Both the position numbers and the translations under genes were made by a program. Of a stretch of 33,634 nt of DNA, positions 3,169 to 29,357 are shown piece after piece. This DNA comes from an uncultured Lachnospiraceae bacterium (GTDB lineage: Bacteria; Bacillota; Clostridia; Lachnospirales; Lachnospiraceae): assembly GCA_946538525.1 (NCBI GenBank), contig CAMNGU010000014.1, forward strand, positions 1 through 33,634, written 5' to 3'. Each line of letters starts with the position of its first letter. Position 1 is the stretch's first letter. Below the pieces are notes generated by a model, which saw only the letters and a program-made list of their open reading frames with translations, was not told where the DNA came from and ran no database searches.

Positions 3169-3202
3169 TATATGGTTGTGATTAAGATATCTTGAGGTGA
3201 TT

Positions 3203-8980: not shown

Positions 8981-9028
8981 ATGATTTTTGCTAGATTTTA
9001 TAAAGTGGAGGAAAAGTTTACAAAATGA
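8981..9028 (+). CDS. Possible 15-codon upstream reading frame coupled to the next gene
   Basis: The frame encodes MIFARFYKVEEKFTK. It has a good ribosome binding site, GGAGAG at 8969-8974, six bases before ATG 8981. Its TGA stop overlaps the ATG of the following gene as ATGA at 9025-9028, the classic arrangement for translational coupling. The ribosome binding site of the main gene (GGAGG, 9007-9011) lies inside it. Without comparative data it could be chance, but ribosome site, start and overlap agree. Confidence 0.35.
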   Translation: MIFARFYKVEEKFTK

Positions 9029-10473: not shown

Positions 10474-10510
10474 AAAAAACATAAACTTGAAATGAATTAA
10501 GGCAAAAAAT

Positions 10511-10560
10511 AGCCCTGAGTGGAATGTGACTGATTGTCGCAAACTCCTCAGGGCTTTTAT
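10511..10560. terminator. Convergent terminator shared by the surface protein and XRE genes
   Basis: AGCCCTGAG (10511-10519) pairs with CTCAGGGCT (10547-10555) across a long loop, followed by TTTTAT. The position between two convergent stops, and A-rich sequence on the other side, suit use from both directions. Confidence 0.7.
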
Positions 10561-10564
10561 TATA

Positions 10565-10783
10565 TTATTTATATCGCTGTTTGGTTGTAGTCTCTCCCAC
10601 TAGATAATCGATGCTGACATTATAATATCGTGCCAATTCAATCAAAATGTCTATAGGTATATCTCTTGTACCATTTTCATAATGAGAATATCCACGCTGA
10701 GATATATGAAGAAGACTGGCGATATACGCCTGGGAAAAGTCATTATCTTCGCGTAAATTTCTTATATTAGCGAATACTTTCAT
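10565..10783 (-). CDS. Small XRE-family (Cro/CI-type) transcriptional regulator
   Basis: This 72-residue protein is almost only a helix-turn-helix domain: IRNLREDNDFSQAYIASLL, then a recognition helix with SQRGYSHYENGTRDIP, and the typical last part ILIELARYYNVSIDYLVGE. It should bind DNA as a dimer and recruits no obvious effector domain. It is the only gene on the minus strand. Its ribosome binding site (AGAGG) lies ten bases before the start. Three AGAAC/GTTCT half-sites at 10850-10879 overlap a possible minus-strand promoter, so it may regulate itself, and perhaps the divergent surface protein gene at 11046. Confidence 0.9.
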   Translation of the reverse strand: MKVFANIRNLREDNDFSQAYIASLLHISQRGYSHYENGTRDIPIDILIELARYYNVSIDYLVGETTTKQRYK

Positions 10784-10849
10784 GAAACTAAAACCTCTAA
10801 AAATACAACCATAAGAGATGTTTTGACTACTATTATGATATTGTAAAAC

Positions 10850-10881
10850 AGAACATAGCGTTCTATTAGGTTTTAGAACAA
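10850..10881 (-). promoter_or_regulatory. Candidate operator and promoter of the XRE gene
   Basis: Half-sites AGAAC (10850-10854), GTTCT (10860-10864) and AGAAC (10875-10879) form two overlapping interrupted palindromes. On the minus strand TTGTTC (10881-10876) and TATGTT (10857-10852), 18 bases apart, could be the -35 and -10 boxes. Binding would then block the promoter. This is read from pattern only. Confidence 0.4.
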
Positions 10882-10951
10882 ATTGGACTAGAAGGAGTAT
10901 GATATAGAAAAAATAATATTAGATACCTATCTAGTAAGGCGCAGAAATGAA

Positions 10952-10960
10952 TGATATAAT
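10952..10960 (+). promoter_or_regulatory. Extended -10 promoter for the 11046 surface protein
   Basis: TGATATAAT has a TGN extension and consensus TATAAT (10955-10960). The leader to the ATG at 11046 would be about 79 bases. Confidence 0.5.
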
Positions 10961-11045
10961 GGTTAGTGCAATAAGATGTAATATAGTATTTTGTGGTATA
11001 AGGAGCAGAAAAATATTAAACATGTTATGAGTGAAAGGGGGACAT

Positions 11046-14400: not shown

Positions 14401-15522
14401 ATGAAAAAAATGTTTTTAAAAACTAAAAAGCATGTGATAAAGAAAGTTCAGATCATGGCTCTTGCGGCAGCATTAGTATGTTCAACTGCGGGCTGTGGTA
14501 GAAGTGAAAGAGCTTTGGTTAGAATATCCCGTGAGACTTCGGAGGAAAAGGCCTATACCATGACCTATGTTATTAAAGGCGATGTGACCTATCAGTTGGA
14601 GGAAGAACTGAAGCTGGATAACTATGTGGAGATTAAGTACGGCCTTTCCTCCAAGCTGATGGATGCCATGCTTCTGGAGGATATTAAGTTCGAAAAGCTC
14701 TATGTAAGTGTGGGGGATATGGTGAAGGAAGGGGATGTGCTTTTGACCATGAGTTCTGACACACTGGACAGCCAGATTGATCAGTACATAGAACAGAAGG
14801 AGATGGCTGAACTAGAGAAGAGGCATTACAACAACCGGACAGCCATAGATAGTGATGAAGATAATGACATGGCAATAGCCAGCTGTGATGAAAAGATAAA
14901 TGTTGCTGCAGGTTATATAAGTGAGCTGGAACAGAAGAGAGAAAATCTGACAATTAAAGCTGATACTGATGGAAAAATCATCGAAATATCAGATCAGGCA
15001 ATAAGCGGAGCTATCAGTAATACAGATGGATTGCTTACTTTGGCAAGCGGAGATGATACATATTATCTTGAAACAGAAGAGATTACAACGCTGGCTGTTG
15101 GAGATATAGTGACAGCCTCCAATAAAATCTCATCTTACGATGCCGTTGTAATAAACATGGAGAAGAGTTCGGCTGGTACAAAGATATATTTTAAGTTGAT
15201 GGGGCCAACGGGGGCTGTGGAGAATAAAGAAGCGCTTGCAGCGGATCTTGTGAAAAATGCTTCACCAAGCGATGCGGAAACTTCTGAGAAAAATCTGATC
15301 ATCATAAATGGATTGATGGTTCCGGTTGCAGAAGAAACCAGAGAAAATGTTCTCTATGTCGCCACTGAAGCAGTTACCGAAAAGGACGGACATTACTATG
15401 TATTTATGCTGGACGAAAACGGAGCAAGAGTGGCCAGAGAGATAAAGGTGGAAAGCGTACTTGGGGAATATATCATTATCACTGATGGAGTAGTTGAAGG
15501 TGATGAGGTAATTCTCGAATAA
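14401..15522 (+). CDS. Membrane-fusion (HlyD/MacA-like) adaptor lipoprotein
   Basis: This is the first gene of the efflux operon. The 373-residue product has a signal peptide with lipobox TAGC (Cys32), so it should be lipid-anchored outside the membrane. A biotinyl-lipoyl half-motif (LYVSVGDMVKEGDVLLTM, 100-117) leads into a helical hairpin of about 60 residues (120-183), and the second lipoyl half follows (LTIKADTDGKII, 183-194). This is the MacA/HlyD order. A beta-barrel region and a C-terminal membrane-proximal domain (VAREIKVESVLGEYIIITDGVVEGDEVIL) complete the fold. The family forms rings that sit on a MacB-type permease. The ribosome binding site GGAG lies eight bases before ATG 14401. 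The hairpin is shorter than in Gram-negative MacA, as expected without an outer membrane channel. Confidence 0.85.
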   Translation: MKKMFLKTKKHVIKKVQIMALAAALVCSTAGCGRSERALVRISRETSEEKAYTMTYVIKGDVTYQLEEELKLDNYVEIKYGLSSKLMDAMLLEDIKFEKLYVSVGDMVKEGDVLLTMSSDTLDSQIDQYIEQKEMAELEKRHYNNRTAIDSDEDNDMAIASCDEKINVAAGYISELEQKRENLTIKADTDGKIIEISDQAISGAISNTDGLLTLASGDDTYYLETEEITTLAVGDIVTASNKISSYDAVVINMEKSSAGTKIYFKLMGPTGAVENKEALAADLVKNASPSDAETSEKNLIIINGLMVPVAEETRENVLYVATEAVTEKDGHYYVFMLDENGARVAREIKVESVLGEYIIITDGVVEGDEVILE

Positions 15523-15561
15523 GTTAGAACTTAGTGAAGCCAGTAATATAGGGAAAGCATT

Positions 15562-17862
15562 ATGAAGAAAAATATACTAAAAATCAGAATAGCTGGAAAG
15601 CCTAAGAAAATCCTGGCTGGAGTCTTGGTGCTTCTAATAACACTATCCTCATTTACAGGTTGTGGTAAAAAGATCTATGAAGAGCCGGAACTTATGGAAT
15701 CTATGGTTGTGGCTAAGATATTCAGACATCCAGAGGTTCGTGATCTGAAAGAGGTGAACAGCTATGAGGGAGTTGTTGTACCAAAGGATTATCCTGTGTT
15801 TTATAAAAACATAACCAGGCTCAGCAGTATAGAAGTGAAGGTTGGAGACTATGTCGAAAGAGGCGATGTTATAGCCTACGGAGTGGTTGAAAATTATGGA
15901 AATACTTCAGAAGATTGGGCAAATATGATTTCAAATGAAACTACTGTCCAAGGTCTTCAGAACAATATAACTAATGATCAGATTGAGTTGGAAAATATAA
16001 ATAGAAAGTCTTCTTCGGAAAGTGGTAACAGTGAGGGGGTTGCAGAAGCAGATAAGCAGATCTCTCTCTTTGGGGAGGATAAAAGATATAATAATGAGCT
16101 GTCGGACTACAAGGTGGGAAGATATACAAAGGCCAAGGCTGTACAGACTGCTAAAGAGGAAGAAGCAGTTCTGGTGGCAGACCATTCGGGATATGTGACA
16201 TTTATCAAGGACATCAGTACTGACGATATGGCGAAGGCATATGAAAATGTGGCAGTTATATCTGATATGAAGGAACTGTATATCCAAGCTGAAGGAATAA
16301 GTGATGATGAGTATACCTGTGAGGACTGTGAAGAGAAATACACTTACATGGATGGAAAGAAGGTTCCAATAAAGGAACTGGACTATGCTGATGACATGAA
16401 GAGTCTTGCAGAGGTTACTAAGAATAAACTTCCTATGAGATTTACAGCATCAGCTGATTTAAAGGCTGGTGACAATATGCTACTGGTATTTAAGAAGACA
16501 AAGGCAGAAAAGGTTTTGGCTGTGGGAAGTGGAGCGGTTATATCTGAAGGACTTAGCCGTTATGTTTATGTCAGAAAAGATGGAGAGGATATTGAGAAAA
16601 GGACTGTTGAGGTAGGTTACAGCAATGGTAATTATACAGAAATAATATATGGACTGACTGAAGAGGATGAGGTTTACTATCCACTGAATCAGTTTTATCC
16701 AGTGAATTATAAAGAGATGGAAATTACTACTGGAGATGTGTCGGTTAGTGCCATGAGTAAGTTCATTCTTGGAAAGAATTCTAATATTAGAGGTTACTAT
16801 ACAGATTATCCGGGACAACTTCAGGAGATATGTGTATCCCAGGATGATGAGGTTAAGAAGGGGGATCTGCTCTTCACCTATACCACTGAAAATACTTCAG
16901 CGAAGATAAAGGAAGTAACTGAGAGCATTAAGGTTCTGAAAGAAAACCATGTCAGCACCTTAGAGATGTATGATGGAATGAAGGAAGCCTACGAGCAAAA
17001 TGATACTGGTGTGAGCACTATGGGAACAGTTGAAGGTGCAACAGTTGGAGACGCATTTTCCAAGGAAAAGCATGATCTGAATTTTGAGATAATCGATTAC
17101 CGTATACAGATTGAAAATGTGAATTATGAATATAGTCTGAAAACTCTGACAGCCAGATATAATGAGCTGACAAAGGATAACGATGGTTCTGGACTTATTA
17201 GTGTATATGCTGAGAAGGATGGAATAATAAAAAATGTGGATGATGAAGCTGTTGCTGGCAAGGTGTTTAAAGATAGACAGTACATCGTATCCATTGCTGA
17301 GCCTGGGGTAAATGAAACTCTGGTGCAGATGAGAGAGATGAAGACTTCGGCTTATGGGGGAACAGAACCGGAACCAACTGGGGACTTTAAGGCTGCTCCT
17401 GTGGGAAAATCACTTAATGTGAAGATTGGCAACCGAGAAATGACTGGAAGAGCCATAGGCGTTAATGGAAATAAAACAGTGTATGACACATATTCAGATG
17501 GGAAGCCAGTATTTACAACCTGTACACCGGGATCAGAATATAGAGATCAGTTCTATGCTGAAGTAGATGGTGAGATTGATTATGAAGCTGCCCTTAGAGA
17601 TAAGAACAGCGTAGAGATAACATTTTTAACAAAAGATTATAAAGGCATTCCCCTGTTAGATAAGGGAGTCATCTATACCACTTACATAGGAGATAAACCT
17701 AGGTATTATGTATGGAAGGAAGAGGGTGGCGAATTGGTAATGCAGTATATAACTATCGTGAGTCTGGGAGATGATAATACAGGTGAAGTGGCAGTTATAG
17801 ATGGAGTGAATGTGGGAGATAAGATAATTCGTGAAGTGACACCCGTTGTTGAGGAGGAATAA
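15562..17862 (+). CDS. Tandem (double) membrane-fusion adaptor lipoprotein
   Basis: This 766-residue lipoprotein (lipobox FTGC, Cys34) seems to hold two adaptor units in one chain. Unit 1 has lipoyl halves at about 88-105 (SIEVKVGDYVERGDVIAY) and 203-215 (LVADHSGYVTFI). Unit 2 has them at about 420-438 (LQEICVSQDDEVKKGDLLF) and 546-559 (ISVYAEKDGIIKNV), and each pair encloses a helical stretch. Each unit ends in a beta-rich part with a typical YGLTEEDEVYY or DGVNVGDKII closing motif. A CEDC pair (Cys253, Cys256) is inserted in unit 1. The gene follows the single adaptor by 39 bases and overlaps the permease by one base (TAATG), so adaptor and permease are translationally coupled. Ordinary adaptors are about half this length. 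Confidence 0.8.
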   Translation: MKKNILKIRIAGKPKKILAGVLVLLITLSSFTGCGKKIYEEPELMESMVVAKIFRHPEVRDLKEVNSYEGVVVPKDYPVFYKNITRLSSIEVKVGDYVERGDVIAYGVVENYGNTSEDWANMISNETTVQGLQNNITNDQIELENINRKSSSESGNSEGVAEADKQISLFGEDKRYNNELSDYKVGRYTKAKAVQTAKEEEAVLVADHSGYVTFIKDISTDDMAKAYENVAVISDMKELYIQAEGISDDEYTCEDCEEKYTYMDGKKVPIKELDYADDMKSLAEVTKNKLPMRFTASADLKAGDNMLLVFKKTKAEKVLAVGSGAVISEGLSRYVYVRKDGEDIEKRTVEVGYSNGNYTEIIYGLTEEDEVYYPLNQFYPVNYKEMEITTGDVSVSAMSKFILGKNSNIRGYYTDYPGQLQEICVSQDDEVKKGDLLFTYTTENTSAKIKEVTESIKVLKENHVSTLEMYDGMKEAYEQNDTGVSTMGTVEGATVGDAFSKEKHDLNFEIIDYRIQIENVNYEYSLKTLTARYNELTKDNDGSGLISVYAEKDGIIKNVDDEAVAGKVFKDRQYIVSIAEPGVNETLVQMREMKTSAYGGTEPEPTGDFKAAPVGKSLNVKIGNREMTGRAIGVNGNKTVYDTYSDGKPVFTTCTPGSEYRDQFYAEVDGEIDYEAALRDKNSVEITFLTKDYKGIPLLDKGVIYTTYIGDKPRYYVWKEEGGELVMQYITIVSLGDDNTGEVAVIDGVNVGDKIIREVTPVVEEE

Positions 17863-20669
17863 TGCTTCAGTTTATAACGAAAAAAATAAGAAGTCAGAGG
17901 CTGCTGAACGGCTGTCTCTTCCTCGGAATAATGATACTGGTAGCAGTTCTTTCTTTGATACCCATGTTTGAGAAGGGCGCTCTGGATGATGTAATCCTTT
18001 ATAACTTTGAGGATAAGGCGTTGGAGACGAATCAGTATCCGGCAGTTATCTCTCGAAGCGATAAGCTGGAGTCAGAAGAAGTGGCCAGTCTTTCAGATGT
18101 GGATGTAGTAATCAAGGGCTATACAGATAGATGGAATAAATATATTGAGCTTCCTGTTCTAAGTCGTCAGGTTATATACACATTATCTGCAGGAAGAATG
18201 TCAGCGAACCTTGTGGGTAAGGAAAAGTCCATTAATATTGTGGCAGTGGATGATGACAGCGAACATCTTAAACTGATAGATTCAGAAAATGGACTTTCAA
18301 AGGATGCTTCTGCCATTAAAGGCTATGTAAAGAAATCCACCATGGATGACATGTCACTAACAGTTGGTGAGACTCTAGAGTTTGAGTATCTAAAGGATGC
18401 AAAGGGAAATAGTCTCAGTCTGGTTATCTCAGGAGTGGCAGAAGCTGAGGACACAGGAGATTATTTCTGGTTCGATGGTACCCAAGGAATAGGAAGCGTC
18501 ATAGTTGTTTCAAAAGAGAATCTGGAAAATATAGTTCAGAACTATGAAGTTGACGGCATAGAATATAAGGTGAGTGAGGTTCTGGATTATAGAGGAATCA
18601 CATCCAATAACATCCGTGCCATCTATGACTATATAAAGCAGTTTGAAAAGAATGAAAAAAAGTTTAAATCAAGTTTTACAGAATTATTGGAGGATTATTT
18701 CGAAACTCAGAAGATGGTAAAGGTGGTTATTATTTCAATACTTACTCCACTTCTAGTGTTGCTGCTGATATTTATCTACATGGTATCAGACAGACTCCGC
18801 ACATATGAGGAGCCGGAGATAAATGTTTTAAGAAGCCGTGGTATATCCAGAAAGACCATCATAAGACAGTATCTCACACAGTTCTTCCTAATCATAACCG
18901 CGACTCTTCCTATTGGAGTGTTGCTAGGATTTCTGATGTGCAAGCTGGGAGCTTCCTCAGTGGATTTCCTTACCTTTAGTATCAGAAATACAGATGTTTA
19001 TACATTTAGATTTGAAGTGCTGGGATATATGCTTATTGCTTATCCTGTGGCAGGGCTTCTCATGATACTTCCAATTATAAGTGCTTCAAAAAATACGGTA
19101 CTTGCAAATAAGGGAAAGAAACATATTTCCAAGAAGAACTTTGTGGAAAGATATTTCCTAGACATAATCATTTTAGCAATTGCAGTCTATCTTCTGTATA
19201 ACTACACAAAGCAGAGAGATGTGATGGTAACAGATATAATGTCTGGTAAATCTGTGGATCCTATGATTCTGATAGATGCGGAACTTTTTACATTTGGAGC
19301 AGCATTTTTACTTATCCGTCTTACTAGGCTCGCCATAACAGCAATTTACAAGGTGGGTAAGAAGAAGTGGAAGCCAGAAACTCTGGCAGCTTTCCTTGAG
19401 GTTATGAAGACCAGAAGAAAGTCCTGGGTGATATCGGTTTTTCTGATAATAACCATTGCTATGGGAATCTACAGCGCCAATCTGGCGAAGACAGTAAACG
19501 CTAATAAGCGGGAGAGGCTTGTTAACGACATTGGTACTGACTGCGTTATGACTCCTCTCAGCCGAGTGGTAGCATCTGGAAATGAGAGAGAGGCCTGGAC
19601 GGTATCGACTCCTGAATACAGTTCCCTACTTAAGTTGAAAGAAGAGGGACTGGCCACAGAGATGACTCGGGTGTATAGAACTAATAAGCTTAATATTCAA
19701 ACAAAAAAAGGAAAAGTAAAGGATGCTGAACTTCTGGGTGTAGACACCAAGGGGATAGGAAAGAGCTCCACCTTCGATATTATGAATAATGATCATCACT
19801 GGTTTGATGATCTGAATGCGCTGGCTTCTGTAAGTAATGGAGCAGTCATTTCCAAAAATATGGCAGATGATTATGGTGTGAAAGTTGGTGATACTCTAGA
19901 GTTGAAGCTTGAATCTGCTTATTCAGATGATGATAAGACAATATACGCCATGAATGTTCAGGTTGTAGGTGTGTTAGATACATTTCCATCCTTTAATCAA
20001 TACTTTTATACAGATAATGTGACTGGAACTAAGGATGAAAATGAGAGATGTCTGGTGGTTATAAATGAAGCTGAGATGAAATTGGGGTATGGTGAACTTC
20101 CTCCTGAAGTCTGGATGAAACTGGCAGATGGAGTGACAGTTTCTGACATTCAGGACTGTATGGATAAAGAAGGGGTTCTGGTTCAAAGTATTGTAGGACT
20201 GGATGAAGAGATTGATAAAACCTTTGGTTCAGCAATGCTCCTAATCACCAACGGACTCTTCAATATAAGCTTTATCATTTCCATGATCGTATGTGTTATA
20301 GGCTTCCTGATATACTGGCTCACATCCATATATTCGAGACAACTCTATTTCGGAGTGTATCGTGCCATGGGAATGGGTATGAAGCGTATCAATAAAATGC
20401 TTGTGAAGGAGCACATCCTTAGCACTATGACTTCCCTTGTTTCGTCAGTGCTGGTAGGTATACTTACCTCAGTACTTTTCACAAGAATCATAAGCTGTAT
20501 ATATCTTCCTGAGAAGCATAGTATTCCGCTGAAGGTTTTTATATCATATCAAGGGTTTATCCGTATTGCTGTGGTTATGATAATTGCAATAGCAGTATGT
20601 ATGATCATAATTAGAAGATTTATAAAAACTCTCAACATAACCGAAGCTATTAAGTTAGGGGAGGATTAG
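17862..20669 (+). CDS. FtsX/MacB-type ABC permease, ten membrane segments
   Basis: The 935-residue permease has membrane segments near 14-36, 287-308, 340-363, 386-408, 430-449, 475-496, 522-543, 795-822, 857-881 and 897-919. Two large extracellular domains lie at about 37-286 and 544-794, so each half has one ectodomain and one FtsX core. The cytoplasmic coupling motifs EEPEINVLRSRGISRKTI and YFGVYRAMGMGMKRI are visible in the first and second FtsX cores. Two FtsX cores in one chain mean a single copy could make a full transporter with two ATPases. Permeases of this type move lipoproteins, peptides or drugs by mechanotransmission and do not form a classical channel. No ATP-binding domain is present; the likely partners are the ATPases at 27670 and 28410. 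Confidence 0.88.
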   Translation: MLQFITKKIRSQRLLNGCLFLGIMILVAVLSLIPMFEKGALDDVILYNFEDKALETNQYPAVISRSDKLESEEVASLSDVDVVIKGYTDRWNKYIELPVLSRQVIYTLSAGRMSANLVGKEKSINIVAVDDDSEHLKLIDSENGLSKDASAIKGYVKKSTMDDMSLTVGETLEFEYLKDAKGNSLSLVISGVAEAEDTGDYFWFDGTQGIGSVIVVSKENLENIVQNYEVDGIEYKVSEVLDYRGITSNNIRAIYDYIKQFEKNEKKFKSSFTELLEDYFETQKMVKVVIISILTPLLVLLLIFIYMVSDRLRTYEEPEINVLRSRGISRKTIIRQYLTQFFLIITATLPIGVLLGFLMCKLGASSVDFLTFSIRNTDVYTFRFEVLGYMLIAYPVAGLLMILPIISASKNTVLANKGKKHISKKNFVERYFLDIIILAIAVYLLYNYTKQRDVMVTDIMSGKSVDPMILIDAELFTFGAAFLLIRLTRLAITAIYKVGKKKWKPETLAAFLEVMKTRRKSWVISVFLIITIAMGIYSANLAKTVNANKRERLVNDIGTDCVMTPLSRVVASGNEREAWTVSTPEYSSLLKLKEEGLATEMTRVYRTNKLNIQTKKGKVKDAELLGVDTKGIGKSSTFDIMNNDHHWFDDLNALASVSNGAVISKNMADDYGVKVGDTLELKLESAYSDDDKTIYAMNVQVVGVLDTFPSFNQYFYTDNVTGTKDENERCLVVINEAEMKLGYGELPPEVWMKLADGVTVSDIQDCMDKEGVLVQSIVGLDEEIDKTFGSAMLLITNGLFNISFIISMIVCVIGFLIYWLTSIYSRQLYFGVYRAMGMGMKRINKMLVKEHILSTMTSLVSSVLVGILTSVLFTRIISCIYLPEKHSIPLKVFISYQGFIRIAVVMIIAIAVCMIIIRRFIKTLNITEAIKLGED

Positions 20670-20698
20670 AATTTATATAAAAATATTTAAAGCTGAAT

Positions 20699-20733
20699 GG
20701 TAAAAGTTAAAGGTTAAGGTAAAAGGTTAAGGG
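20699..20733 (+). repeat. GGTAAAAGGTTAA-type repeats before the first lipoprotein gene
   Basis: Imperfect copies of GGTAAAAGGTTAA run through this leader. The complete 13-mer at 20718-20730 occurs again at 22501-22513, before the paralogous gene. This probably records the gene duplication. Confidence 0.65.
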
Positions 20734-20738
20734 ATAAT

Positions 20739-20808
20739 ATGATAAGAAAAAATATGATAAAAAATATAATAAGAAAAAATATAATAAGAAAATATACGAT
20801 AAAAAACA
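20739..20808 (+). repeat. AT-rich tandem repeat of about 15 bp at the lipoprotein A start
   Basis: Repeats close to AATATAATAAGAAAA encode IRKN/IIRK-like blocks. The period is a multiple of three, so changes in number lengthen or shorten the N-terminus without shifting the frame. Confidence 0.65.
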
Positions 20809-22493
20809 TGAAGATAAGAAGTGGGAAAATAATGACCTCACTGCTAATTGGAATCATGCTTCTATCAACTGTGGGATGCCAGAAGAAAGCAGAAAAGATA
20901 GAAGGGTTTGATGAGTCTGCCTCAGATAATGAGTCGAAGGCTGAAATATCTTCTGAATCCGGTGGCTCAAAGGTTGTGGAGTATGAAAACTGGAGTGATT
21001 CTCTAAGTGGAACTGGCTTTGAATCTGTGGAAGTGGAGACGGCCATGAGAACAGATTATGATCTAGATAATCTTTCGACTCTTACAGTAAGGTTTCAGGA
21101 GTTCAATAAAGACTATACCAGGGAGATGATCGAAACAGTTTTTGATTCTGATGATGTGGAGGTGTACGACTTCAACAAACCCACCAAAAGAGTTTACGAT
21201 GATCTTTTGACGGTATATAACGAAGTGGCTTCAATGTATGATCTGATGGAGAAAAAGAATCCTAATTCCCTGAAATATGCACCAGACGAATATATGACAA
21301 ATACAGGGTATTGGGCATTGACTGAGGTGACTGAACCGAATTTGGTTAAAAGAGAGGATATAGAAGAAGAGATTAATAAACTGGAAAGTGAAAAGGAGAG
21401 TGCACCTGAAAGTATAGAAAATGATTATTCCTACCAGGGCTATATTGGTCAGATAGGTGGTGAAGATTATTATATGTATTTTGGAAATAGAGAATATGAT
21501 GAGTATATGAATTCTCCAGAAACTACTCAGTTTAATGGGAGGGTTATAACCATTATGAGGAAATCTCTTGAAGAGGCGTTTAATGGGAATGATGATCATA
21601 TTTTTCTAGAAGAAAATGCATATTCGGAGTCAGGTGTTGATGAGGCTTTTGATTCAGGAGTTGTTTCCAAAATGGATGCAATTGTGGAAATGGAAACATC
21701 TTTGATTAAAGATGTGGATAATCCTGATGAAATGAATAATTATCGTGAAGAAGCAGAAAACTTTCTTTCTAAGTTGGGGTATTCGGAATATAAACTTACT
21801 GGGGAATCCAATGTTAACTGGGGGAATCAGGTTTCCAACGGATTTCTATATAAAAGGAATATTCCAATGTCAGTGTATTCCATTATGCAGTCAGATGGTG
21901 TGAGACTTAGATATTCTCTGGAGATTGATGGTACAGATAAACTTTTATATAACGATGTACAGCTTCCGTCCTATGCAGAGAGTGATACGCTGGATATCAA
22001 ATCCTATGTGGATGTAATAGTGAATGACAAGGGAATTCTTTGTTGTCAGATATTTAATCCGGCAAAGGTTATTAAGGAGGACTCGGTTGAAAGAGTGCTG
22101 GATAATAGTTCCGTTATAGACATTGTAAAGGATAGTGTTAATGACAAGTCAGTCTGGAATATTCCTGCAGGTCGTGAGGTGAAAAATACCAAGATAACAA
22201 ATGAAAAACTAGTGAGCTTTCCAGTTAGATCTAAAGAGGATGCCAGTGAATATACATTTGTTCCATGTTACATGTTCTATTCACAACTGGATGAGGATTC
22301 CTGGTATGGAGGTTCCATAATCCCGGCTGCTTCCTATACTGATTATCCATTTATTCTGATAAATGCCATCGATGGAAGTTTTGTAAAGGTGGAAGATGAA
22401 TTAACCGACTATCCATCAGGCTGGGACAATGGAAATGTGGGATATACCAGTTACAAACTGGGAACCTGGACAAGATTTATTAAAGAAGATTAA
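20739..22493 (+). CDS. Lipoprotein of unknown function, paralogue A
   Basis: The 584-residue product has a lipobox STVGC (Cys47), so it is probably anchored outside the membrane. I do not recognise a known fold. An acidic, Ser-rich spacer follows the cysteine. A block starting YENWSDSLSG and containing PESIENDYSYQGYIGQIGG, YYMYFGN and PFILINAIDGSFVKVEDEL is shared with the next gene, which identifies tandem paralogues. The start at 20739 has a good AAGGG ribosome binding site five bases away, but the first 23 residues are Lys/Asn/Ile repeats from an AT-rich 15-bp DNA repeat. ATG 20808, which would give a normal signal peptide, lacks such a site. The many acidic and aromatic residues suit extracellular ligand binding. 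It may be a substrate-binding or sensor-ligand subunit of the efflux system; that is inference. Confidence 0.8.
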   Translation: MIRKNMIKNIIRKNIIRKYTIKNMKIRSGKIMTSLLIGIMLLSTVGCQKKAEKIEGFDESASDNESKAEISSESGGSKVVEYENWSDSLSGTGFESVEVETAMRTDYDLDNLSTLTVRFQEFNKDYTREMIETVFDSDDVEVYDFNKPTKRVYDDLLTVYNEVASMYDLMEKKNPNSLKYAPDEYMTNTGYWALTEVTEPNLVKREDIEEEINKLESEKESAPESIENDYSYQGYIGQIGGEDYYMYFGNREYDEYMNSPETTQFNGRVITIMRKSLEEAFNGNDDHIFLEENAYSESGVDEAFDSGVVSKMDAIVEMETSLIKDVDNPDEMNNYREEAENFLSKLGYSEYKLTGESNVNWGNQVSNGFLYKRNIPMSVYSIMQSDGVRLRYSLEIDGTDKLLYNDVQLPSYAESDTLDIKSYVDVIVNDKGILCCQIFNPAKVIKEDSVERVLDNSSVIDIVKDSVNDKSVWNIPAGREVKNTKITNEKLVSFPVRSKEDASEYTFVPCYMFYSQLDEDSWYGGSIIPAASYTDYPFILINAIDGSFVKVEDELTDYPSGWDNGNVGYTSYKLGTWTRFIKED

Positions 22494-22500
22494 ATAAATT

Positions 22501-22513
22501 GGTAAAAGGTTAA
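22501..22513 (+). repeat. Second copy of the 13-mer GGTAAAAGGTTAA
   Basis: This is identical to 20718-20730 and lies before lipoprotein paralogue B, in the same relative place. Confidence 0.7.
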
Positions 22514-22589
22514 AATGGATAACCAATGGGTAAAGGTTGAAACATAAAGAAAAAGATTAAAGATAAAAAAAATAAAAGAGGTTAGGAGA

Positions 22590-24245
22590 ATGATAAATAA
22601 GAATTTAAATATTAAAAAATGGGTCAGTAGAATTCTCTCTGTAGGACTTATGACTGGACTTTTATTTGTAGGTACTGGCTGTGAAAAGAAGGCGGAGGCG
22701 ATTGAGGAATTTGGATCAGCTCAGGAATCGGTTCAGGGGGCAGATGATGAAGCGAATAACAGTTCTTCAAATTCAGGTGAAACTCAGAGTTCAGGCGCTG
22801 ACTTCACAGGAAATAATAAGCCCAGAAAACTAGAAGATAAATGGGTCGATACAGTAGAATCGGAGGATGGCCCATTTTCCAAGGTAGAAATCAAAGCGGA
22901 TGTGTATGAGTATACAGGACCTAATAAGGTGGTGACAGCAGACGCTCAGGAATATAACAAAGACTTCGTAAAGGAAATGTGTGACAGGGTTTATGGTGGA
23001 ACTCCAGAGGTATATGATTACAATGCCAAGACTAAGAAACTTTATGATTCAGAAATAGATATGTATAAGGATCTTAAGGCCATGTATGAAGAGACGGATA
23101 TGAAGAAAATGTCATTTATGGATTTAAGTGGTGAGAATGTATCACTTGAAACTTCTATGGAGGATACAAAGAATGCGGTGGATGCAAAGATAGCAGAACT
23201 TGAAAAGGAAAAAGAAGAGGCTCCGGAAACCATAGAGAATGACTATTCATATGGAGGTTATGTTGGTGATATATTGGGTGATGAGTATTATATGTATTTT
23301 GGTAACTGTAACTATGATGAGTATACTCAGGCACCAATAACAGAGTATGTTGATGGTCGTGTCTGTTCAATATTTAGAACAGATATGAAGTCAATGTTCA
23401 ATGGGAAAAGAGGTTTTATATCTCATTTTGGTCAGGCAGGAACATATGAAAAACTAAGTAATCCACCTGAAGATATAAAGTCTATGGCAGATGAGTTTGT
23501 TAAGACAATCGGTTATGGGGATTATGAGTTTTCAGATGCAGGTGGATTCTATTATAAGGAGGGGTTTGATCAGCATCTGTTTTTCGATAAGGATTATCTG
23601 TCAGCAACATATCTTACTGATTCAGGAGAAACTGGGTACATTATGGTGTATACTATGGGTGGTACTTCTTACGGTGCTGTTGATGCCTGGCTTTTCAGTT
23701 TCGATAATTATGTAGATGATAAGGAGGCAATTAATCCCGACTCATGTATCTATGTTTTTGCAAATGATAAAGGTATAGTTGGTTGCCAGTTGGTTAATCC
23801 TCTTACAGTAAAAAGCGTGGAGGATGCTGAGGTTATCAGTATTGATGATGCCAAGGATATAGTGCTCAACAACATTGGAAATAAAGAAGCGTGGAATATT
23901 GCTTCAGATTCAAGGGTTCAGGCTCCTGAAATTGATACTATGCAACTTATAAAATTTCCAATTAGATCGAATGATAACAAGAATGAATATACATTTGTTC
24001 CGGCATATGTGGTTTATGATTCTATAGTTAACAATGGAGTAGTTGATACCACAGAAGTTTCAGAACAGCTTCAGTATGCACCATTTATGCTGATAAATGC
24101 TCTTGATGGAAGTTTTATAAATGTAAATGATAACCTGTCCAACTATCCAAAAGGATTTTCTCGTGGAAATGAGGGATACCAGAATCGTATTAATTGTACC
24201 TGGGAGAGATACGAGAATATCGTAGGTGAGGAGCAATATTATTAA
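22590..24245 (+). CDS. Lipoprotein of unknown function, paralogue B
   Basis: The 551-residue product has a standard lipoprotein signal (lipobox GTGC, Cys31) followed by a Ser/Asn/Gly-rich spacer to about residue 75. It matches paralogue A over nearly the whole mature part. Shared motifs include YNKDFVKEM, EVYDYNAKTKKLYD, APETIENDYSYGGYVG, EYYMYFGN and PFMLINALDGSFINVNDNLSNYPKGF. The closing Trp-containing segment (GNEGYQNRINCTWERYE) also aligns. An AGGAG ribosome binding site precedes ATG 22590. No enzyme motif is visible. The duplicated pair between the permease and the two-component genes suggests binding or relay roles, perhaps one subunit for transport and one for signalling. Confidence 0.8.
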   Translation: MINKNLNIKKWVSRILSVGLMTGLLFVGTGCEKKAEAIEEFGSAQESVQGADDEANNSSSNSGETQSSGADFTGNNKPRKLEDKWVDTVESEDGPFSKVEIKADVYEYTGPNKVVTADAQEYNKDFVKEMCDRVYGGTPEVYDYNAKTKKLYDSEIDMYKDLKAMYEETDMKKMSFMDLSGENVSLETSMEDTKNAVDAKIAELEKEKEEAPETIENDYSYGGYVGDILGDEYYMYFGNCNYDEYTQAPITEYVDGRVCSIFRTDMKSMFNGKRGFISHFGQAGTYEKLSNPPEDIKSMADEFVKTIGYGDYEFSDAGGFYYKEGFDQHLFFDKDYLSATYLTDSGETGYIMVYTMGGTSYGAVDAWLFSFDNYVDDKEAINPDSCIYVFANDKGIVGCQLVNPLTVKSVEDAEVISIDDAKDIVLNNIGNKEAWNIASDSRVQAPEIDTMQLIKFPIRSNDNKNEYTFVPAYVVYDSIVNNGVVDTTEVSEQLQYAPFMLINALDGSFINVNDNLSNYPKGFSRGNEGYQNRINCTWERYENIVGEEQYY

Positions 24246-24246
24246 T

Positions 24247-24322
24247 GAAATATAGTAGAAATATAAAGAAATATAAAAGAAATATAAAAGAAATATAAAA
24301 GGAATATAAAAGGAATATTTTC
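24247..24322 (+). repeat. A-rich tandem repeat with 11-bp period before the response regulator gene
   Basis: Three exact GAAATATAAAA units (24268-24300) are followed by GGAATATAAAA and GGAATATTTTC, all at exactly 11 bases, with degenerate copies before them. A period close to one DNA helical turn favours intrinsic bending. The last units also provide the AAGGA ribosome binding site, so unit loss or gain could alter expression of the regulator. Confidence 0.75.
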
Positions 24323-24326
24323 TAAA

Positions 24327-24986
24327 ATGGTAAAGATACTTATTGTGGAAGATGAAAAACCCATATCAGATCTTATAAAATTGAATCTAAGAAAGGAAGG
24401 GTACGACTGTACAGCAGTGTACGATGGACTTGATGCCATAGATTTAGTTGATAAGGAACACTTTGATCTGGTACTTCTGGATATAATGCTTCCAGGCGCG
24501 GATGGCTTTCAGGTCATGGATTATATTAGACCGCTGGAAATTCCAGTGATTTTCATTACTGCAAAGTCTGCGCTGGATGACAGGTTGCAGGGCCTTACAT
24601 CAGGCGCAGAGGATTATATGATTAAGCCATTTGAACCATCGGAACTTATTGCCAGAGTAAATATCGTTCTGCGACGATTTGATAAGACAGAGAAGATTCT
24701 TACTCTGGGCGACCTTACTGTTAATACTGAAAGCATGGATGTGACCAGGGGAAATGAACCAATTAAGCTCACCCCAAAAGAGTTCGAGCTCCTGGTCCTC
24801 CTTATGCGAAATAAGAATATTACCCTGTACCGGGATAAGATATATGAAGAGGTGTGGGGCGGCGAGGCTGAACTGGAAACCAGAACTGTGGACATACATA
24901 TTCAGCGTCTAAGAAAAAAAGCGGGACTTAAAGGCTCTCTGGTTACAGTTTATAACATGGGCTATAAGTTGGTTTCGGATAAGTAG
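24327..24986 (+). CDS. OmpR/PhoB-family response regulator
   Basis: This DNA-binding regulator has a receiver domain (1-115) with acidic pocket Glu8-Asp9-Glu10, phosphoacceptor Asp52 (LVLLDIMLPG), Thr78 and Lys100, so it should be phosphorylated by the kinase encoded next. The C-terminal winged helix (about 125-219) shows LTPKEFELLVLLMRNKN and TRTVDIHIQRLRKKAG, typical of OmpR/PhoB proteins. At 219 residues it has normal length. It lies 81 bases after paralogue B, behind an 11-bp A-rich repeat. A likely target is the palindrome at 14334-14349, before its own operon. Confidence 0.95.
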   Translation: MVKILIVEDEKPISDLIKLNLRKEGYDCTAVYDGLDAIDLVDKEHFDLVLLDIMLPGADGFQVMDYIRPLEIPVIFITAKSALDDRLQGLTSGAEDYMIKPFEPSELIARVNIVLRRFDKTEKILTLGDLTVNTESMDVTRGNEPIKLTPKEFELLVLLMRNKNITLYRDKIYEEVWGGEAELETRTVDIHIQRLRKKAGLKGSLVTVYNMGYKLVSDK

Positions 24987-25060
24987 ATGATTTAGCGAAA
25001 TATTAGTTTGAGATATAGAAAGCTTATTGGCTAGATAAAAGATAATTACAGGATAGTTAA

Positions 25061-26677
25061 ATGAAATTCAGATATAAGGTTTTATTCGTAAACTTAATAA
25101 TTCTGTCTATCGTGCTGGGATTTACCGGTTATCTTTTAGTGTATAGAAACTACAGGCAGGCGCTCACCATGGAACTTCGAAATGCTACCACCGAGAATAA
25201 CATGGTTAAGGCATCGGTGGAGTATGAACTCCTGGATTTACTGAATTCATCCGATAATTCCATGAATAAGAAGGTAAATACATCGGAAATGGGGAGAGTC
25301 ATCAAGCGAGTGGATTCAAGTATGCTTCTGTCAGGAAGTATTCTCTATGTAAAATATGGTGATGATTATGTTTTTTCCGGAGATGATCTGGAACAGTCCA
25401 TTCCTGCTGCATTATTGGAAGGTGGTGGTAAAGATGCCGGTTCTAATGATATCAGTTCAACAGGAAAAAAATATATTTATCATGATGATGATACAGGACA
25501 TTTCTTATATATAAGTTCACCTGGTTATATGCAGAATGCCAGCATTACCATTATTACTAAAAAAGACATTTCAAATGTGTATGATCAGCTTAGTGCAAAT
25601 CTTAGATTTCTCAAAATCATTTCCATTGTGGTTCTTTTTATATCGGCAATTACAATCTATCTTATCAGCCGATTTATGACCAGACCGTTGGAGAAACTGA
25701 ATAGTATTACCACTCGAATATCTGGAGGAGATTATTCTGTTCGTGCTGATATTAATTCTAATGATGAGGTGGGAACTCTGGCAGAGAATTTTAATCAGAT
25801 GGCAGGCTCTGTAGAGGAAAATGTGGAAGAGCTGAAAAATATGATTCATAGAAGGGAACAGTTTGTTGCCGACTTCACTCATGAGATGAAGACTCCAATG
25901 ACCACCATCATAGGTTATGCTGATTCCGTAAGACATCTGGATATGACGGAAGAGGAGCGGAATATGTCCCTTGAATATATTTATACCGAAGGTAAGCGGC
26001 TAGAGACAATGTCACAGAAACTGTTCGATCTTCTGTATCTTAAGGACAGTACCGTATTTATGGAAGAACAGGATACAGCAGAGCTGGGGGCTGAGACTAT
26101 TCTCCATATGAGACCTATTATGGAAAGAGATAGCATAAGCATTGTTTCTGATTTTGAAGATGGAGAAATCTATGGTGATGGAGAGCTGATAAAAACGGTT
26201 TTCATTAACCTTCTGGATAATGCCCGAAAGGCAACTAAGGCGAAGCTTCAGATGGATTCAAAAGAAACCCGTGAAATATATTTCGGTGGATATATGGTGG
26301 ATTCGGAAACTGATCTAGCTAAAGACCAGGCTGAAAATAAAAAGAGTTTAGATAAGAGTTTAGATAAGAGCTCAGATAAGAGCTCAAATAAGAGCTCAAA
26401 TAAGAGTTCAGGTCCAAATTCTTGCAAGAGATATGAATATGTAGTCAGAGATAATGGTATTGGAATCTCTGAGGAGGACCAGAAGAAAATCTTTGATGAG
26501 TTCTTCATGGTTGATAAATCAAGAACCAGAAAAGAAGGTGGCGCCGGTTTGGGAATGTCCTTGGTGGCTATAATTCTGGAAAAGCATGGGGCGGAGGTTC
26601 GTATAGAAAGTGAATTGGGCAAGGGAACAGCTATCTATACCACCTGGCCTCTTTACGAAGACGATGAAGATATTTAG
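25061..26677 (+). CDS. Membrane sensor histidine kinase with a tandem-repeat insert in its ATPase domain
   Basis: The 538-residue kinase has membrane segments at about 7-29 and 183-205 enclosing an extracellular sensor of about 150 residues, then a HAMP domain (about 206-258). The dimerisation helix follows with phosphoacceptor His274 (FTHEMKTP), then the ATP-binding domain with N-box Asn383/Asn387 (INLLDNARKA), G1 DNGIGI near 464 and G2 GGAGLGMS near 492. Between N-box and G1 lies an extra segment of about 60 residues, including Asp/Lys/Ser repeats (about 427-450). The catalytic motifs on both sides are intact, so the enzyme is probably active. The insert lies where other kinases have only a short strand-loop. 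It partners with the response regulator at 24327. Confidence 0.93.
   Translation: MKFRYKVLFVNLIILSIVLGFTGYLLVYRNYRQALTMELRNATTENNMVKASVEYELLDLLNSSDNSMNKKVNTSEMGRVIKRVDSSMLLSGSILYVKYGDDYVFSGDDLEQSIPAALLEGGGKDAGSNDISSTGKKYIYHDDDTGHFLYISSPGYMQNASITIITKKDISNVYDQLSANLRFLKIISIVVLFISAITIYLISRFMTRPLEKLNSITTRISGGDYSVRADINSNDEVGTLAENFNQMAGSVEENVEELKNMIHRREQFVADFTHEMKTPMTTIIGYADSVRHLDMTEEERNMSLEYIYTEGKRLETMSQKLFDLLYLKDSTVFMEEQDTAELGAETILHMRPIMERDSISIVSDFEDGEIYGDGELIKTVFINLLDNARKATKAKLQMDSKETREIYFGGYMVDSETDLAKDQAENKKSLDKSLDKSSDKSSNKSSNKSSGPNSCKRYEYVVRDNGIGISEEDQKKIFDEFFMVDKSRTRKEGGAGLGMSLVAIILEKHGAEVRIESELGKGTAIYTTWPLYEDDEDI
26339..26410 (+). repeat. 12-bp tandem repeat inside the histidine kinase gene
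   Basis: Six units resembling GATAAGAGCTCA run from 26339 to 26410. The units at 26363 and 26375 are identical, and the others differ by a few bases. They encode DKSS, NKSS and LDKS blocks in frame. Replication slippage would add or remove four residues at a time. Confidence 0.88.
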
Positions 26678-26690
26678 GAAGTGTCTATAG

Positions 26691-27641
26691 ATGAAAGGGA
26701 TTAAAACAAGTAAGAAGCATATGTTTTTAGCAGGTGTGGCGCTGATAACGGCGGTACTATCTATTTGTTTACCCGAAAAACTAATATTTCATACCAAGAA
26801 TAACATAACAGATGTGTGCATGGATGTACCTGAAGAGTATTATCCAACCTCTTCATACTATGAGGTTACGAAAGAGTTTTCAGAAAAATTGAGTGAATAC
26901 CAGAAGAGGCAGCTCATTTCAGGAGCCTGGGTTAGTGAGATTACTCCAGTAGATAAGGAGTTCTATAGCGATTCAGGATATCATATTCAGGAGATGGCGA
27001 AGGATAAGATTAATATGCTTTCTGAGGATGGTTTCTATCCTGGAAACATCCAGTCCTCATATAAGCAGTGGTATAACTGGAAATGTACCTATCTGCAGGC
27101 ACTGGATATGAACTTTAGAACCTATGCAGGATTCTTCTGGAAGATATCATTTACTCATTTTGAAAGTGGGGAGAAGATGACGGTTTTCCTGACAGCAGAT
27201 GGAAGGGTTCTGAAGATGATCTATTCATCAGGAGAAGAAGAGAAAGCTGAAAATGTGGAACTTACTATTGATAGCAGTAAGAAGATATTAAGGACCATGC
27301 TGGGTACAGACTTCGAAATAACTTCTGTTAAGGATTCAACAGAGCAGGATGTTCTGGCGGTAAATACATATCTTCAAAGTGACAGGCTTACTACAGATCT
27401 GGCAGAGGGAGAATCTGATGATACAAATGAGAATTCACAAGAAAGCTCAGAAGAGAATACAGAAAAAAATATAGAAGAAAATACAGCACAGAATGGTGAC
27501 ATGGATTATAAGCTGGAGGTAAAGAGGATCACAGTGCTGGATCTTTCAGTCGATTCCTCAGATACCACAGGAAATGATTATTATCTTTATATCTATCAGT
27601 CAGATTCTGATTATGCAATTGGATTGATCCCAGTGGAATAA
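26691..27641 (+). CDS. Membrane-anchored extracellular protein of unknown function
   Basis: This 316-residue protein begins with a Lys-rich start and one hydrophobic segment (about 10-27, MFLAGVALITAVLSICL) that lacks a clear lipobox or cleavage site, so it is probably a signal anchor. The extracellular part is rich in Tyr, Trp and Ser and ends with a long acidic low-complexity stretch (about 240-268, Asn/Glu/Ser) before a last beta-rich segment. I see no known domain. It lies 13 bases after the kinase and before the two ATPases, so it probably belongs to the same system, perhaps as an accessory to the sensor or permease. Confidence 0.75.
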   Translation: MKGIKTSKKHMFLAGVALITAVLSICLPEKLIFHTKNNITDVCMDVPEEYYPTSSYYEVTKEFSEKLSEYQKRQLISGAWVSEITPVDKEFYSDSGYHIQEMAKDKINMLSEDGFYPGNIQSSYKQWYNWKCTYLQALDMNFRTYAGFFWKISFTHFESGEKMTVFLTADGRVLKMIYSSGEEEKAENVELTIDSSKKILRTMLGTDFEITSVKDSTEQDVLAVNTYLQSDRLTTDLAEGESDDTNENSQESSEENTEKNIEENTAQNGDMDYKLEVKRITVLDLSVDSSDTTGNDYYLYIYQSDSDYAIGLIPVE

Positions 27642-27669
27642 GTGAAAAAAAATACTGGATAAAAACGAA

Positions 27670-28347
27670 ATGAAAAAAGACATCATACTTAGAACGGAAC
27701 ATATCATAAAAGAATATAAATCAGGAAAGACAGGAGTCTTCAGGGCGCTGAAGGATGTAAGCGTGGACATTGAAAGGGCAAAGCTTACTATCATTAAAGG
27801 GCGAAGTGGATCAGGAAAAACCACTCTTCTTAATATGTTTAGTTATCTGGATAAACCAACTGATGGTCTTGTCGCCATGGGAGATACTGAACTGGGAAAA
27901 CTCAGTGATGAAGAACTGGAGGATTTTAGAAGAATCCATATGGGATTTGTATTTCAGTCGGTTGCACTATTCCCTATAATGAGTGCCTATGAAAATGTGG
28001 ATTTTGCTCTTCGCCTGGCAGAGTATGAAGGCGATAGAGATGAACGTATAAAAGAGGTTATGACTCTAGTGGGAATAGAAGAAAGAATGATGCATACTCC
28101 GGATGAAATGTCTGGTGGAGAACAGCAGAGAGTTGCCATAGCAAGAGCCATAGCTCCAAGACCGGATGTGCTGTTTGCAGACGAGCCAACAGGGGCGCTG
28201 GATACAGCAACGGGAATTAAGGTGGTGAATCTTTTTAAAAAACTGATTGAAGCAGAAGGATTATCCATTGTAATGACCACCCATGACTCGGGGCTTATGC
28301 AGATGGGTGATGTGGTATATGAAATGTCAGATGGACAGATACAGTAA
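27670..28347 (+). CDS. MacB/LolD-type ABC ATPase, first of two
   Basis: The 225-residue ATPase belongs to the class that partners FtsX-type permeases. Motifs: Walker A GRSGSGKTT (44-52), Q-loop Gln96 (FVFQS), signature MSGGEQQR (147-154), Walker B with Glu172 (VLFADEPTGALD) and switch His205. It is complete and compact, with no extra domain. The ribosome binding site is weak. It differs clearly from the second ATPase at 28410, so both are more likely to form a heterodimer on the duplicated permease than to be redundant copies. Confidence 0.93.
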   Translation: MKKDIILRTEHIIKEYKSGKTGVFRALKDVSVDIERAKLTIIKGRSGSGKTTLLNMFSYLDKPTDGLVAMGDTELGKLSDEELEDFRRIHMGFVFQSVALFPIMSAYENVDFALRLAEYEGDRDERIKEVMTLVGIEERMMHTPDEMSGGEQQRVAIARAIAPRPDVLFADEPTGALDTATGIKVVNLFKKLIEAEGLSIVMTTHDSGLMQMGDVVYEMSDGQIQ

Positions 28348-28409
28348 TAAGTACACATAAAGATTATATACATGACACTAATAGATAACAAAAGGTTTAG
28401 AAAAAATTT

Positions 28410-29357
28410 ATGAGTGAACTAATACAGGAAAATGTGAATACTGCTCAGCAGGAAACTGAAAGAAAGTTAGTGGTGGAATGCGATGGTCTGGTAAAGCTAT
28501 ATAAAACCAGTGAGGTTGAGGTTATGGCTCTTCAGGGATTGGAATTGGAGATTGAGCAGGGAGAACTGATTGCTATTATCGGAAAGTCAGGAAGTGGAAA
28601 GACTACCCTCCTTAATATCATCGGAGCTTTGGAACAGCCATCAGCCGGGAAGATATATATAGATGGTCAGGACCTTTCTACATTAACTCCAAAACAGCTG
28701 GAAGAAATCCGTAAAAAGAAGATTGGATTTGTGTGGCAGAAGGCGTCGCAGAATCTATTTCCATATATGACTGCTGTGGAGAATATAGAGTCGCAGCTTT
28801 ACTATGAGAAAATGTCTAAGAAGGAAAGACGTCAGAAGGCACTGGCTCTTCTGGAGGAAGTTGGACTTTTGGATAAAGCAGACTCATTTCCCAAAGAACT
28901 TTCAGGAGGAGAGCAACAGAGGGTTGCCATAGCTGTTGCTCTTATTCGTGATCCGGAGATACTGCTGGCGGACGAGCCTACGGGGGCGGTGGATTCTAAA
29001 ACCTCGGATATGATTCAAAATCTTTTTAGAAAACTGAACCGTGAAAGGGGCTTAACCGTAATCATCGTTACCCATGATATAAGTCTTGCCAATAAGGTGG
29101 ACCGTGTAGTAATGATTTCTGATGGACGAGTTACAACTGAGAGAATTATGAAGGAGAAATATAAGGAAAATATTTCTGCTCTCAGTAATGAAAACTTTGA
29201 TATGTCAGTGGTGCATGAAGAGTTTTCTGTGCTGGATAAAGCAGGTCGTCTGAAACTATCTGATGAGATTAGAGAGCAGACAGGGCTCACTTCTGCAAGA
29301 GTTAAGGTGGAAGTTATTGATGGAAAGGTTGTAATTAGTGGAACAGATAGTGAATAA
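28410..29357 (+). CDS. MacB/LolD-type ABC ATPase with an AbrB-like C-terminal tail
   Basis: The 315-residue second ATPase has Walker A GKSGSGKTT (58-66), Q-loop Gln110, signature LSGGEQQR (164-171), Walker B ILLADEPTGAVD (184-195, Glu189) and switch His222. An extra N-terminal segment of about 20 residues precedes the first strand. A C-terminal extension of about 75 residues ends in FSVLDKAGRLKLSDEIREQ followed by a VKVEVIDGKVVI strand, which resembles the swapped-hairpin AbrB/SpoVT pattern (V-D-x-x-G-R-x-x-L-P-x-E-x-R). The usual Pro is Ser here. This could be a dimerisation or regulatory part; DNA binding is not shown. It is the last gene of the efflux operon. Confidence 0.9.
   Translation: MSELIQENVNTAQQETERKLVVECDGLVKLYKTSEVEVMALQGLELEIEQGELIAIIGKSGSGKTTLLNIIGALEQPSAGKIYIDGQDLSTLTPKQLEEIRKKKIGFVWQKASQNLFPYMTAVENIESQLYYEKMSKKERRQKALALLEEVGLLDKADSFPKELSGGEQQRVAIAVALIRDPEILLADEPTGAVDSKTSDMIQNLFRKLNRERGLTVIIVTHDISLANKVDRVVMISDGRVTTERIMKEKYKENISALSNENFDMSVVHEEFSVLDKAGRLKLSDEIREQTGLTSARVKVEVIDGKVVISGTDSE

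Follow-up and report, generated by a model that had tools for sequence, protein, structure and literature searches.

Gene content of the cluster

The window, by which we mean the whole stretch of 33,634 nucleotides that was analysed, is one entire contig of a 2.63 Mb genome (187 contigs, 80% complete) that falls into one genus grouping together with the genomes G004 and G001; its host family, the Lachnospiraceae, is common in the rumen and gut. The named genes were confirmed between positions 14401 and 29357. An earlier sequence-only reading had described nine genes on one strand with short gaps or overlaps; the arrangement holds, all genes lying on the + strand with spacings of -1 to 96 bp across the cluster, but its own list comprises ten, namely MFP1, MFP2, permease, LPa, LPb, regulator, kinase, M316, ATP1 and ATP2. 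The features are as follows.

14401-15522, + strand: MFP1, membrane-fusion (adaptor) lipoprotein of one unit; matches to Biotin_lipoyl_2, HlyD_D23 and RND_mfp, none of which reaches its cut-off; lipobox Cys32
15562-16689, + strand: N-terminal adaptor unit of MFP2, estimated to span about residues 1-376; RND_mfp at 200-371; lipobox Cys34
16690-17862, + strand: C-terminal adaptor unit of MFP2, estimated to span about residues 377-766; above-cut-off match to Biotin_lipoyl_2 at 417-440
17862-20669, + strand: permease, 10 TM, two FtsX cores, two extracytoplasmic domains; FtsX twice, MacB_PCD, TM scan, alignment of 22
20739-22493, + strand: LPa, DUF6034-like lipoprotein, likely start near 20808; lipobox Cys47, profile match from 20808
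22590-24245, + strand: LPb, paralogue of LPa; lipobox atypical, missed by the pattern
24247-24318, + strand: 11-bp A+T-rich tandem repeat, 6.6 copies, ending just upstream of the regulator gene
24327-24986, + strand: OmpR/PhoB-type response regulator; Pfam/NCBIfam
25061-26677, + strand: histidine kinase with HAMP and an extracytoplasmic stretch of about 158 residues; Pfam, TM scan
26691-27641, + strand: M316, single-pass membrane protein (316 aa); no Pfam match above cut-off
27670-28347, + strand: ATP1, ABC ATPase without extension; NCBIfam, tree, motifs
28410-29357, + strand: ATP2, ABC ATPase with C-terminal extension; NCBIfam, tree, motifs, tail profile
29196-29345, + strand: AbrB/MazE-like C-terminal domain of ATP2; profile comparisons

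Pfam and NCBIfam returned FtsX (two stretches), MacB_PCD, an OmpR/PhoB-type regulator, a HAMP/HisKA kinase and two LolD/MacB-like ATPases, in agreement with the regulator, kinase and ATPase types read earlier. Promoter and terminator scans of the window found 55 and 9 candidates against 53.4 and 7.6 expected from shuffles, and given this closeness a single transcript is neither supported nor excluded by the scans. Searches of the window against Rfam and for tRNA genes gave no match.

Hydropathy of the permease (935 residues) gave 11 windows, two of them overlapping and thus 10 TM segments; its large loops span about 37-287 and 542-800. Both FtsX (4.4e-15) and MacB_PCD (1.5e-8) scored above cut-off, and the TM scan and Pfam therefore confirm the ten-TM permease with two FtsX cores proposed earlier. 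Read by eye in an alignment of 22, the two coupling regions are unlike in sequence.

The adaptor matches are weak, only the Biotin_lipoyl_2 match of MFP2 exceeding its Pfam/NCBIfam cut-off. Three adaptor units had been proposed and three were recovered, two of them within MFP2: separate MFP genes of relatives match the profile up to about position 375, where the N-terminal unit ends, and a third separate MFP gene in six relatives is the counterpart of the C-terminal unit. Among the 95 loci with an adaptor match, a single plus a fused gene occurs in 82 and three single genes in 6; the remainder comprise one locus with four ORFs (one unit seems broken in two), one with two (an unmatched 477-aa ORF lies between the adaptors and the permease) and five with one ORF only, three of which begin less than 50 bases from the edge of the stretch.

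LPa and LPb are paralogous and 31% identical. Tandem repeats at 20736-20820 span the first codons of the LPa ORF, and because its first 23 codons sit in this repeat, the true start is probably near 20808 and not at 20739. DUF6034 was matched by 16 of 25 members of the lipoprotein family at E up to 0.1 (best 4e-19), LPa itself giving no match, and on this profile evidence the lipoproteins are assigned to a wider DUF6034-like family. Compared with solved structures, the lipoprotein profile had no relative of note (best E 0.033) and the M316 profile had none.

The 11-bp repeat before the regulator gene could possibly tune expression by slippage. In the kinase, TM segments at 7-25 and 184-202 (hydropathy scan) enclose a large extracytoplasmic stretch, whereas BceS-type kinases are not known to have a large extracellular sensor domain. 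At 538 aa, the window kinase is longer than those of four orthologous loci (475-488 aa), and its gene contains an in-frame tandem repeat with a 12-bp unit at 26342-26411.

The five-gene core in relatives

Permease matches at 1e-20 were found in 46 of the 61 genomes of the genus. Orthologues (49-78% identity) occur in seven of these genomes, other matches having about 30-45% identity, and the window genome holds one permease of each kind. Of the seven orthologous loci, L034, L036, L038 and L040 repeat the ten-gene order, two of these four having three lipoprotein genes; in L039 the regulator, kinase and M316 genes are missing, and L035 and L037 are truncated by a contig edge. In the paralogous locus of the window genome (L004), the order MFP1-MFP2-permease-ATP1-ATP2 is accompanied by one lipoprotein gene, and genes for the regulator, the kinase and M316 come later in the locus.

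Scanning named genomes brought up 83 relatives, and 80 of them were retained; 61 of these loci were adequately flanked (3.7 kb or more on the upstream side, 2.2 kb or more on the downstream side), and 19 were excluded for short flanks. All five core genes were present in 57 of the 61, some of which also supplied sequences for the profiles used, and both adaptor genes in all 61. The four exceptions lack one or both ATPases beside the permease: in L094 ATP1 is truncated next to what looks by eye like a recombinase gene, L113 and L117 have no ATPase of either kind, and L120 (12880-15860) has ATP1 and no ATP2, the next gene encoding another, 756-aa protein that by eye is FtsX-like. At the family level, the permease was matched at 1e-40 in 33 of 250 genomes; 20 of the 36 places were examined, and every one has adaptors, permease, ATP1 and ATP2 in order, two of them (L151 and L152) being contigs already counted as L061 and L099. 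The conserved machine is therefore a five-gene core of single adaptor, fused adaptor, permease, ATP1 and ATP2. The genes are thus kept together in relatives as the sequence-only reading had expected, although the conserved unit is the core, present in nearly all flanked loci, with the full ten-gene order in four of the seven orthologous ones.

A two-component system and M316 often accompany this core, the regulator and the kinase each lying near the permease in at least 29 and M316 in at least 27 of the 61 adequately flanked loci. M316 has 48 matches across the 61 genus genomes, 33 of them within 15 kb of a permease piece; 38 genomes have both M316 and the permease, 2 only M316, 8 only the permease and 13 neither (Fisher p = 2e-6, with genomes treated as independent and kinship ignored). 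The lipoprotein profile matches near the permease in at least 12 of the 61 flanked loci and 12 times in the window genome, where some matches are pieces of one protein. We had considered that the lipoproteins are dedicated to the pump and dropped this, since the family occurs in 57 of the 61 genus genomes, against 46 for the permease, and also in genomes without the permease; this weakens their proposed role as ligand binders dedicated to the pump.

Beyond the family, nine loci have the order ATP1-adaptor-permease-ATP2 with one adaptor (L143, L145, L146, L147, L169, L172, L173, L174 and L175), and L144 and L148 are cut by contig ends. An SBP_bac_1 solute-binding protein follows ATP2 in both L147 (3822-5270) and L169 (9805-11364). 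In genome G643, adaptor and permease occur without ATPases (L171), and ATP1 and ATP2 lie adjacent on another contig, each place well inside its contig. No other single observation hints as strongly that ATP1 and ATP2 are partners as this pair, unlinked from the permease yet adjacent. There (L187, 7255-15519) the pair is followed by genes for a large solute-binding protein and importer-type permeases. Four further loci (L176, L177, L178 and L179) have two adjacent ATPases and one permease of about 890 aa, with no adaptor, and perhaps represent a wider class of two-ATPase systems, their ATPases lying outside the tree sample described below. Regulator and kinase genes are found near three of these four and, among the distant relatives, beside L172, L176, L177 and L178.

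Nine genomes were tested for an outer membrane. Omp85 and TolC-family genes are both present in six (G100, G142, G124, G076, G648 and G698) and both missing from G000, G643 and G126. In L143, which belongs to the Omp85-bearing genome G100, ATP1 is immediately preceded by two TolC-family genes, which favours export; for the other five, the TolC-family matches listed sit on different contigs or at a great distance, and one locus is cut at the permease. At 247-3753 of L143, a third ABC ATPase accompanies the two TolC-family genes ahead of ATP1 on the same strand. The window genome, at 80% completeness, gave no Omp85 or TolC-family (OEP) match, so there is probably no outer membrane to cross. The module's earlier description as trans-envelope is to be used with caution, and since a single-membrane family keeps a constant set of three adaptor units, one may ask what function adaptors have without an outer membrane.

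The two ATPases and the ATP2 tail

Descriptions of type VII machines such as MacB, LolCDE, YbbAP and BceAB give each a single kind of ATPase, present twice. To place the two ATPases found here, we used a tree of 96 rows from 43 hand-picked loci, the window and nine outside ATPases, several of which are long-branched. ATP1 and ATP2 are separated by a branch into two clades with supports of 96/79 and 100/98, each clade comprising Lachnospiraceae, other Bacillota, Paenibacillus cellulosilyticus (L169) and the actinomycete Nonomuraea (L170). The composition of the module is asymmetric, as had been proposed. The best NCBIfam matches of both are LolD, FtsE, DevA and MacB, all below the equivalog cut-offs. 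Within 130 paired loci, near-copies included (84 at <90% permease identity), the Q-loop, the DE of Walker B and the H-loop are present in all 117-130 rows readable per site in both ATPases; since the motifs are intact wherever readable, both enzymes look catalytically complete and neither ATP site looks degenerate. PADLOC also matched the ATPases to defence models, which was set aside as general ATPase similarity.

ATP2 differs from ATP1 in its last 50 residues, which are conserved and AbrB/MazE-like. Where loci were not cut near the ATPases, a profile of this tail, built from 16 of the same sequences, matched 95 of 97 distinct ATP2 and none of 98 ATP1; the two tail-less cases are a broken frame (L078) and a contig end (L104). 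A strict tail pattern (98 of 141 ATP2, 0 of 140 ATP1) had proved too strict, many loci being cut, and the profile was used instead. The kinship of the tail to AbrB/MazE is modest by profile comparison: it fits the profile of these swapped-hairpin domains weakly, over most of its length, and AbrB structures match at about 6e-4, with two partial SRP matches ranking higher. MazE matches the tail of two relatives at 0.0015 and 0.0075, both below cut-off; the window ATP2 tail has no MazE match, its best being BON at 0.00097, also below cut-off. The tail profile also picks an 80-aa MazE-like ORF of the same genome at 7e-4. AbrB and MazE bind DNA or a toxin and their domains normally function as self-dimers, whereas the AbrB-like domain here is fused to an ABC ATPase. 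We infer that the tail makes the motor asymmetric and that it probably has a part in dimerisation or docking.

Tail and permease go together in number. In the window genome (80% complete), only two ATPases carry the tail, and each of the two permease copies has one of them as a neighbour; the alternative that each ATPase has a separate permease elsewhere is thereby not what was found. Comparison of tail matches at 1e-8 with the permease across the 61 genus genomes gave equal copy numbers in 57, and in 31 of the 31 good genomes (completeness of 90% or more, contamination of 5% or less), 26 of which have both and 5 neither. The mismatches, G019, G043, G044 and G045, are all <80% complete.

Known systems, proposed mechanism and alternatives

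The cluster is a type VII ABC system whose permease is nearest in shape to YbbP and whose partners are nearest to those of MacAB. It has the marks of type VII (the MacB superfamily), with an FtsX-like permease core, a MacB-type extracytoplasmic domain and LolD/FtsE/MacB-type ATPases with complete motifs, but a tested defining feature of each of MacAB, YbbAP, BceAB and LolCDE fails. The earlier view that the composition is not that of MacAB, LolCDE or BceAB is thus upheld.

YbbP is described as a 10-TM single chain with two extracytoplasmic domains that derives from duplication and is served by two YbbA (PMC12646458). The permease shares this plan with YbbAP-TesA of E. coli (PMC12646458), its 10 TM segments and the extracytoplasmic domains after TM1 and TM7 being drawn from hydropathy only. 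As described there, however, YbbAP-TesA uses two copies of one ATPase and the esterase TesA (PMC12646458), whereas the present cluster has two distinct ATPase genes of two clades, adaptors, and no TesA-like gene.

MacAB-TolC and the Gram-positive YknXYZ and SpMacAB share with our cluster the adaptor, encoded with the transporter, the MacB-type permease and the LolD/MacB-type ATPase, and single-membrane versions exist (PMC5985334). They differ, in the account given there, by a half-size permease acting as a dimer, one ATPase type and one adaptor type forming a homohexamer, one MacB dimer carrying a MacA hexamer (PMC5985334). The fusion of ATPase to a 4-TM half permease that marks MacAB-TolC is absent here, as is its outer-membrane partner, with TolC genes beside the core only in L143 and no OEP match in the window genome.

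BceAB-BceRS likewise places a single-chain 10-TM permease beside a two-component system, but BceB has one extracellular domain, one ATPase type and, as far as the cited accounts go, no adaptor, against two large loops here (PMC5985334, PMC11466899). With LolCDE the cluster shares two unlike permease halves and a best ATPase match to LolD, below cut-off; LolC and LolE are, however, separate chains that use LolD twice and serve outer-membrane lipoproteins (PMC10094684), and two separate 4-TM permeases with one ATPase type are absent here. The type VII table of a B. subtilis survey gives the same protein for both ATPases in the rows shown (PMC11466899). Searches of the open-access PMC literature brought up neither a type VII system whose two ATPases differ nor an AbrB/MazE-like tail on an ABC ATPase.

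FtsX-type permeases act by mechanotransmission. The reading that we favour, and hold to be moderately probable from the sequence comparisons above, is a type VII exporter with a YbbP-like single-chain permease, MacAB-like partners and a dedicated ATP1:ATP2 heterodimer. ATP1 and ATP2 would bind the cytoplasmic side of the two permease halves, and closing and opening of the pair would, as in the known family, move the two extracytoplasmic domains. These would drive the substrate, which may be amphiphilic or peptide-like and come from the outer leaflet or a periplasm-like zone, through a funnel of adaptors, presumably a mixed ring of two copies of each of the three units by analogy with six MacA per MacB dimer. 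In double-membraned relatives the funnel may dock on a TolC-family duct, and in the window host it may end in the cell wall. The kinase, regulator and M316 might sense the substrate or the state of the envelope and control the operon. A covariation test of the coupling regions of the permease against ATP1 and against ATP2 (84 sequences, with an effective number of 54) singled out neither ATPase for either half, and its top pairs are nearly invariant columns.

Instead of pumping, the complex could sense or transduce force, detecting envelope stress or activating extracellular enzymes in the manner of FtsEX or BceAB sensing, and signal via the kinase. Type VII systems need not move a substrate (PMC11466899), and the signalling genes recur in the flanked loci (regulator and kinase in 29, M316 in 27 of 61), with regulator and kinase also beside the distant relatives L172, L176, L177 and L178. 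We nevertheless regard this as unlikely, given the adaptor genes in every adequately flanked locus, the TolC-family genes that precede the core in L143, and the 32 of 61 loci with no regulator-kinase pair in the stretch covered.

In MalK-like ATPases, regulatory domains pair inside a homodimer. By such pairing of the ATP2 tails, the permease might take two ATP1 or two ATP2 according to conditions; the usual self-dimerisation of AbrB/MazE domains and the complete motifs of both ATPases speak for exchangeable homodimers of this kind. The adjacency of ATP1 and ATP2 in 57 of 61 loci, the match in number of permease and tail, the G643 pair linked away from the permease, and coupling regions whose unlikeness (by eye) suits unlike partners all speak against them, and we consider them rather improbable.

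That two systems simply lie side by side, one ATPase serving the permease and the other something else, is very improbable: L120, with its ATP1 followed by the 756-aa FtsX-like protein (by eye) and no ATP2, and the solute-binding and importer-type genes after the G643 pair would fit, but both ATPases are present in 57 of 61 and 20 of 20 loci and both clades recur in the same lineages.

Should the heterodimeric exporter be correct, a lineage that conserves two different ATPases, each dedicated and catalytically complete, would show that type VII machinery can be asymmetric on purpose; two such ATPases would let each ATP site and each permease half be tested apart, and the ATP2 tail would be an AbrB/MazE-type fold used in a membrane motor. 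It can be speculated, with little confidence, that the tails of two ATP2 interlock and tie two transporters together, so that all five core products occur in duplicate and the six adaptor units make up a single ring of three different adaptors, each in its fixed place; the export pump would then be asymmetric in adaptor ring, motor and membrane part.

Elsewhere in the window, as judged by eye, an ABC ATPase gene is followed at 3197-6164 by a permease whose C-terminal part resembles a CPBP-type membrane protease, and two secreted proteins encoded at 9025-12629 carry Trp-rich repeats that resemble cell-wall-binding repeats.
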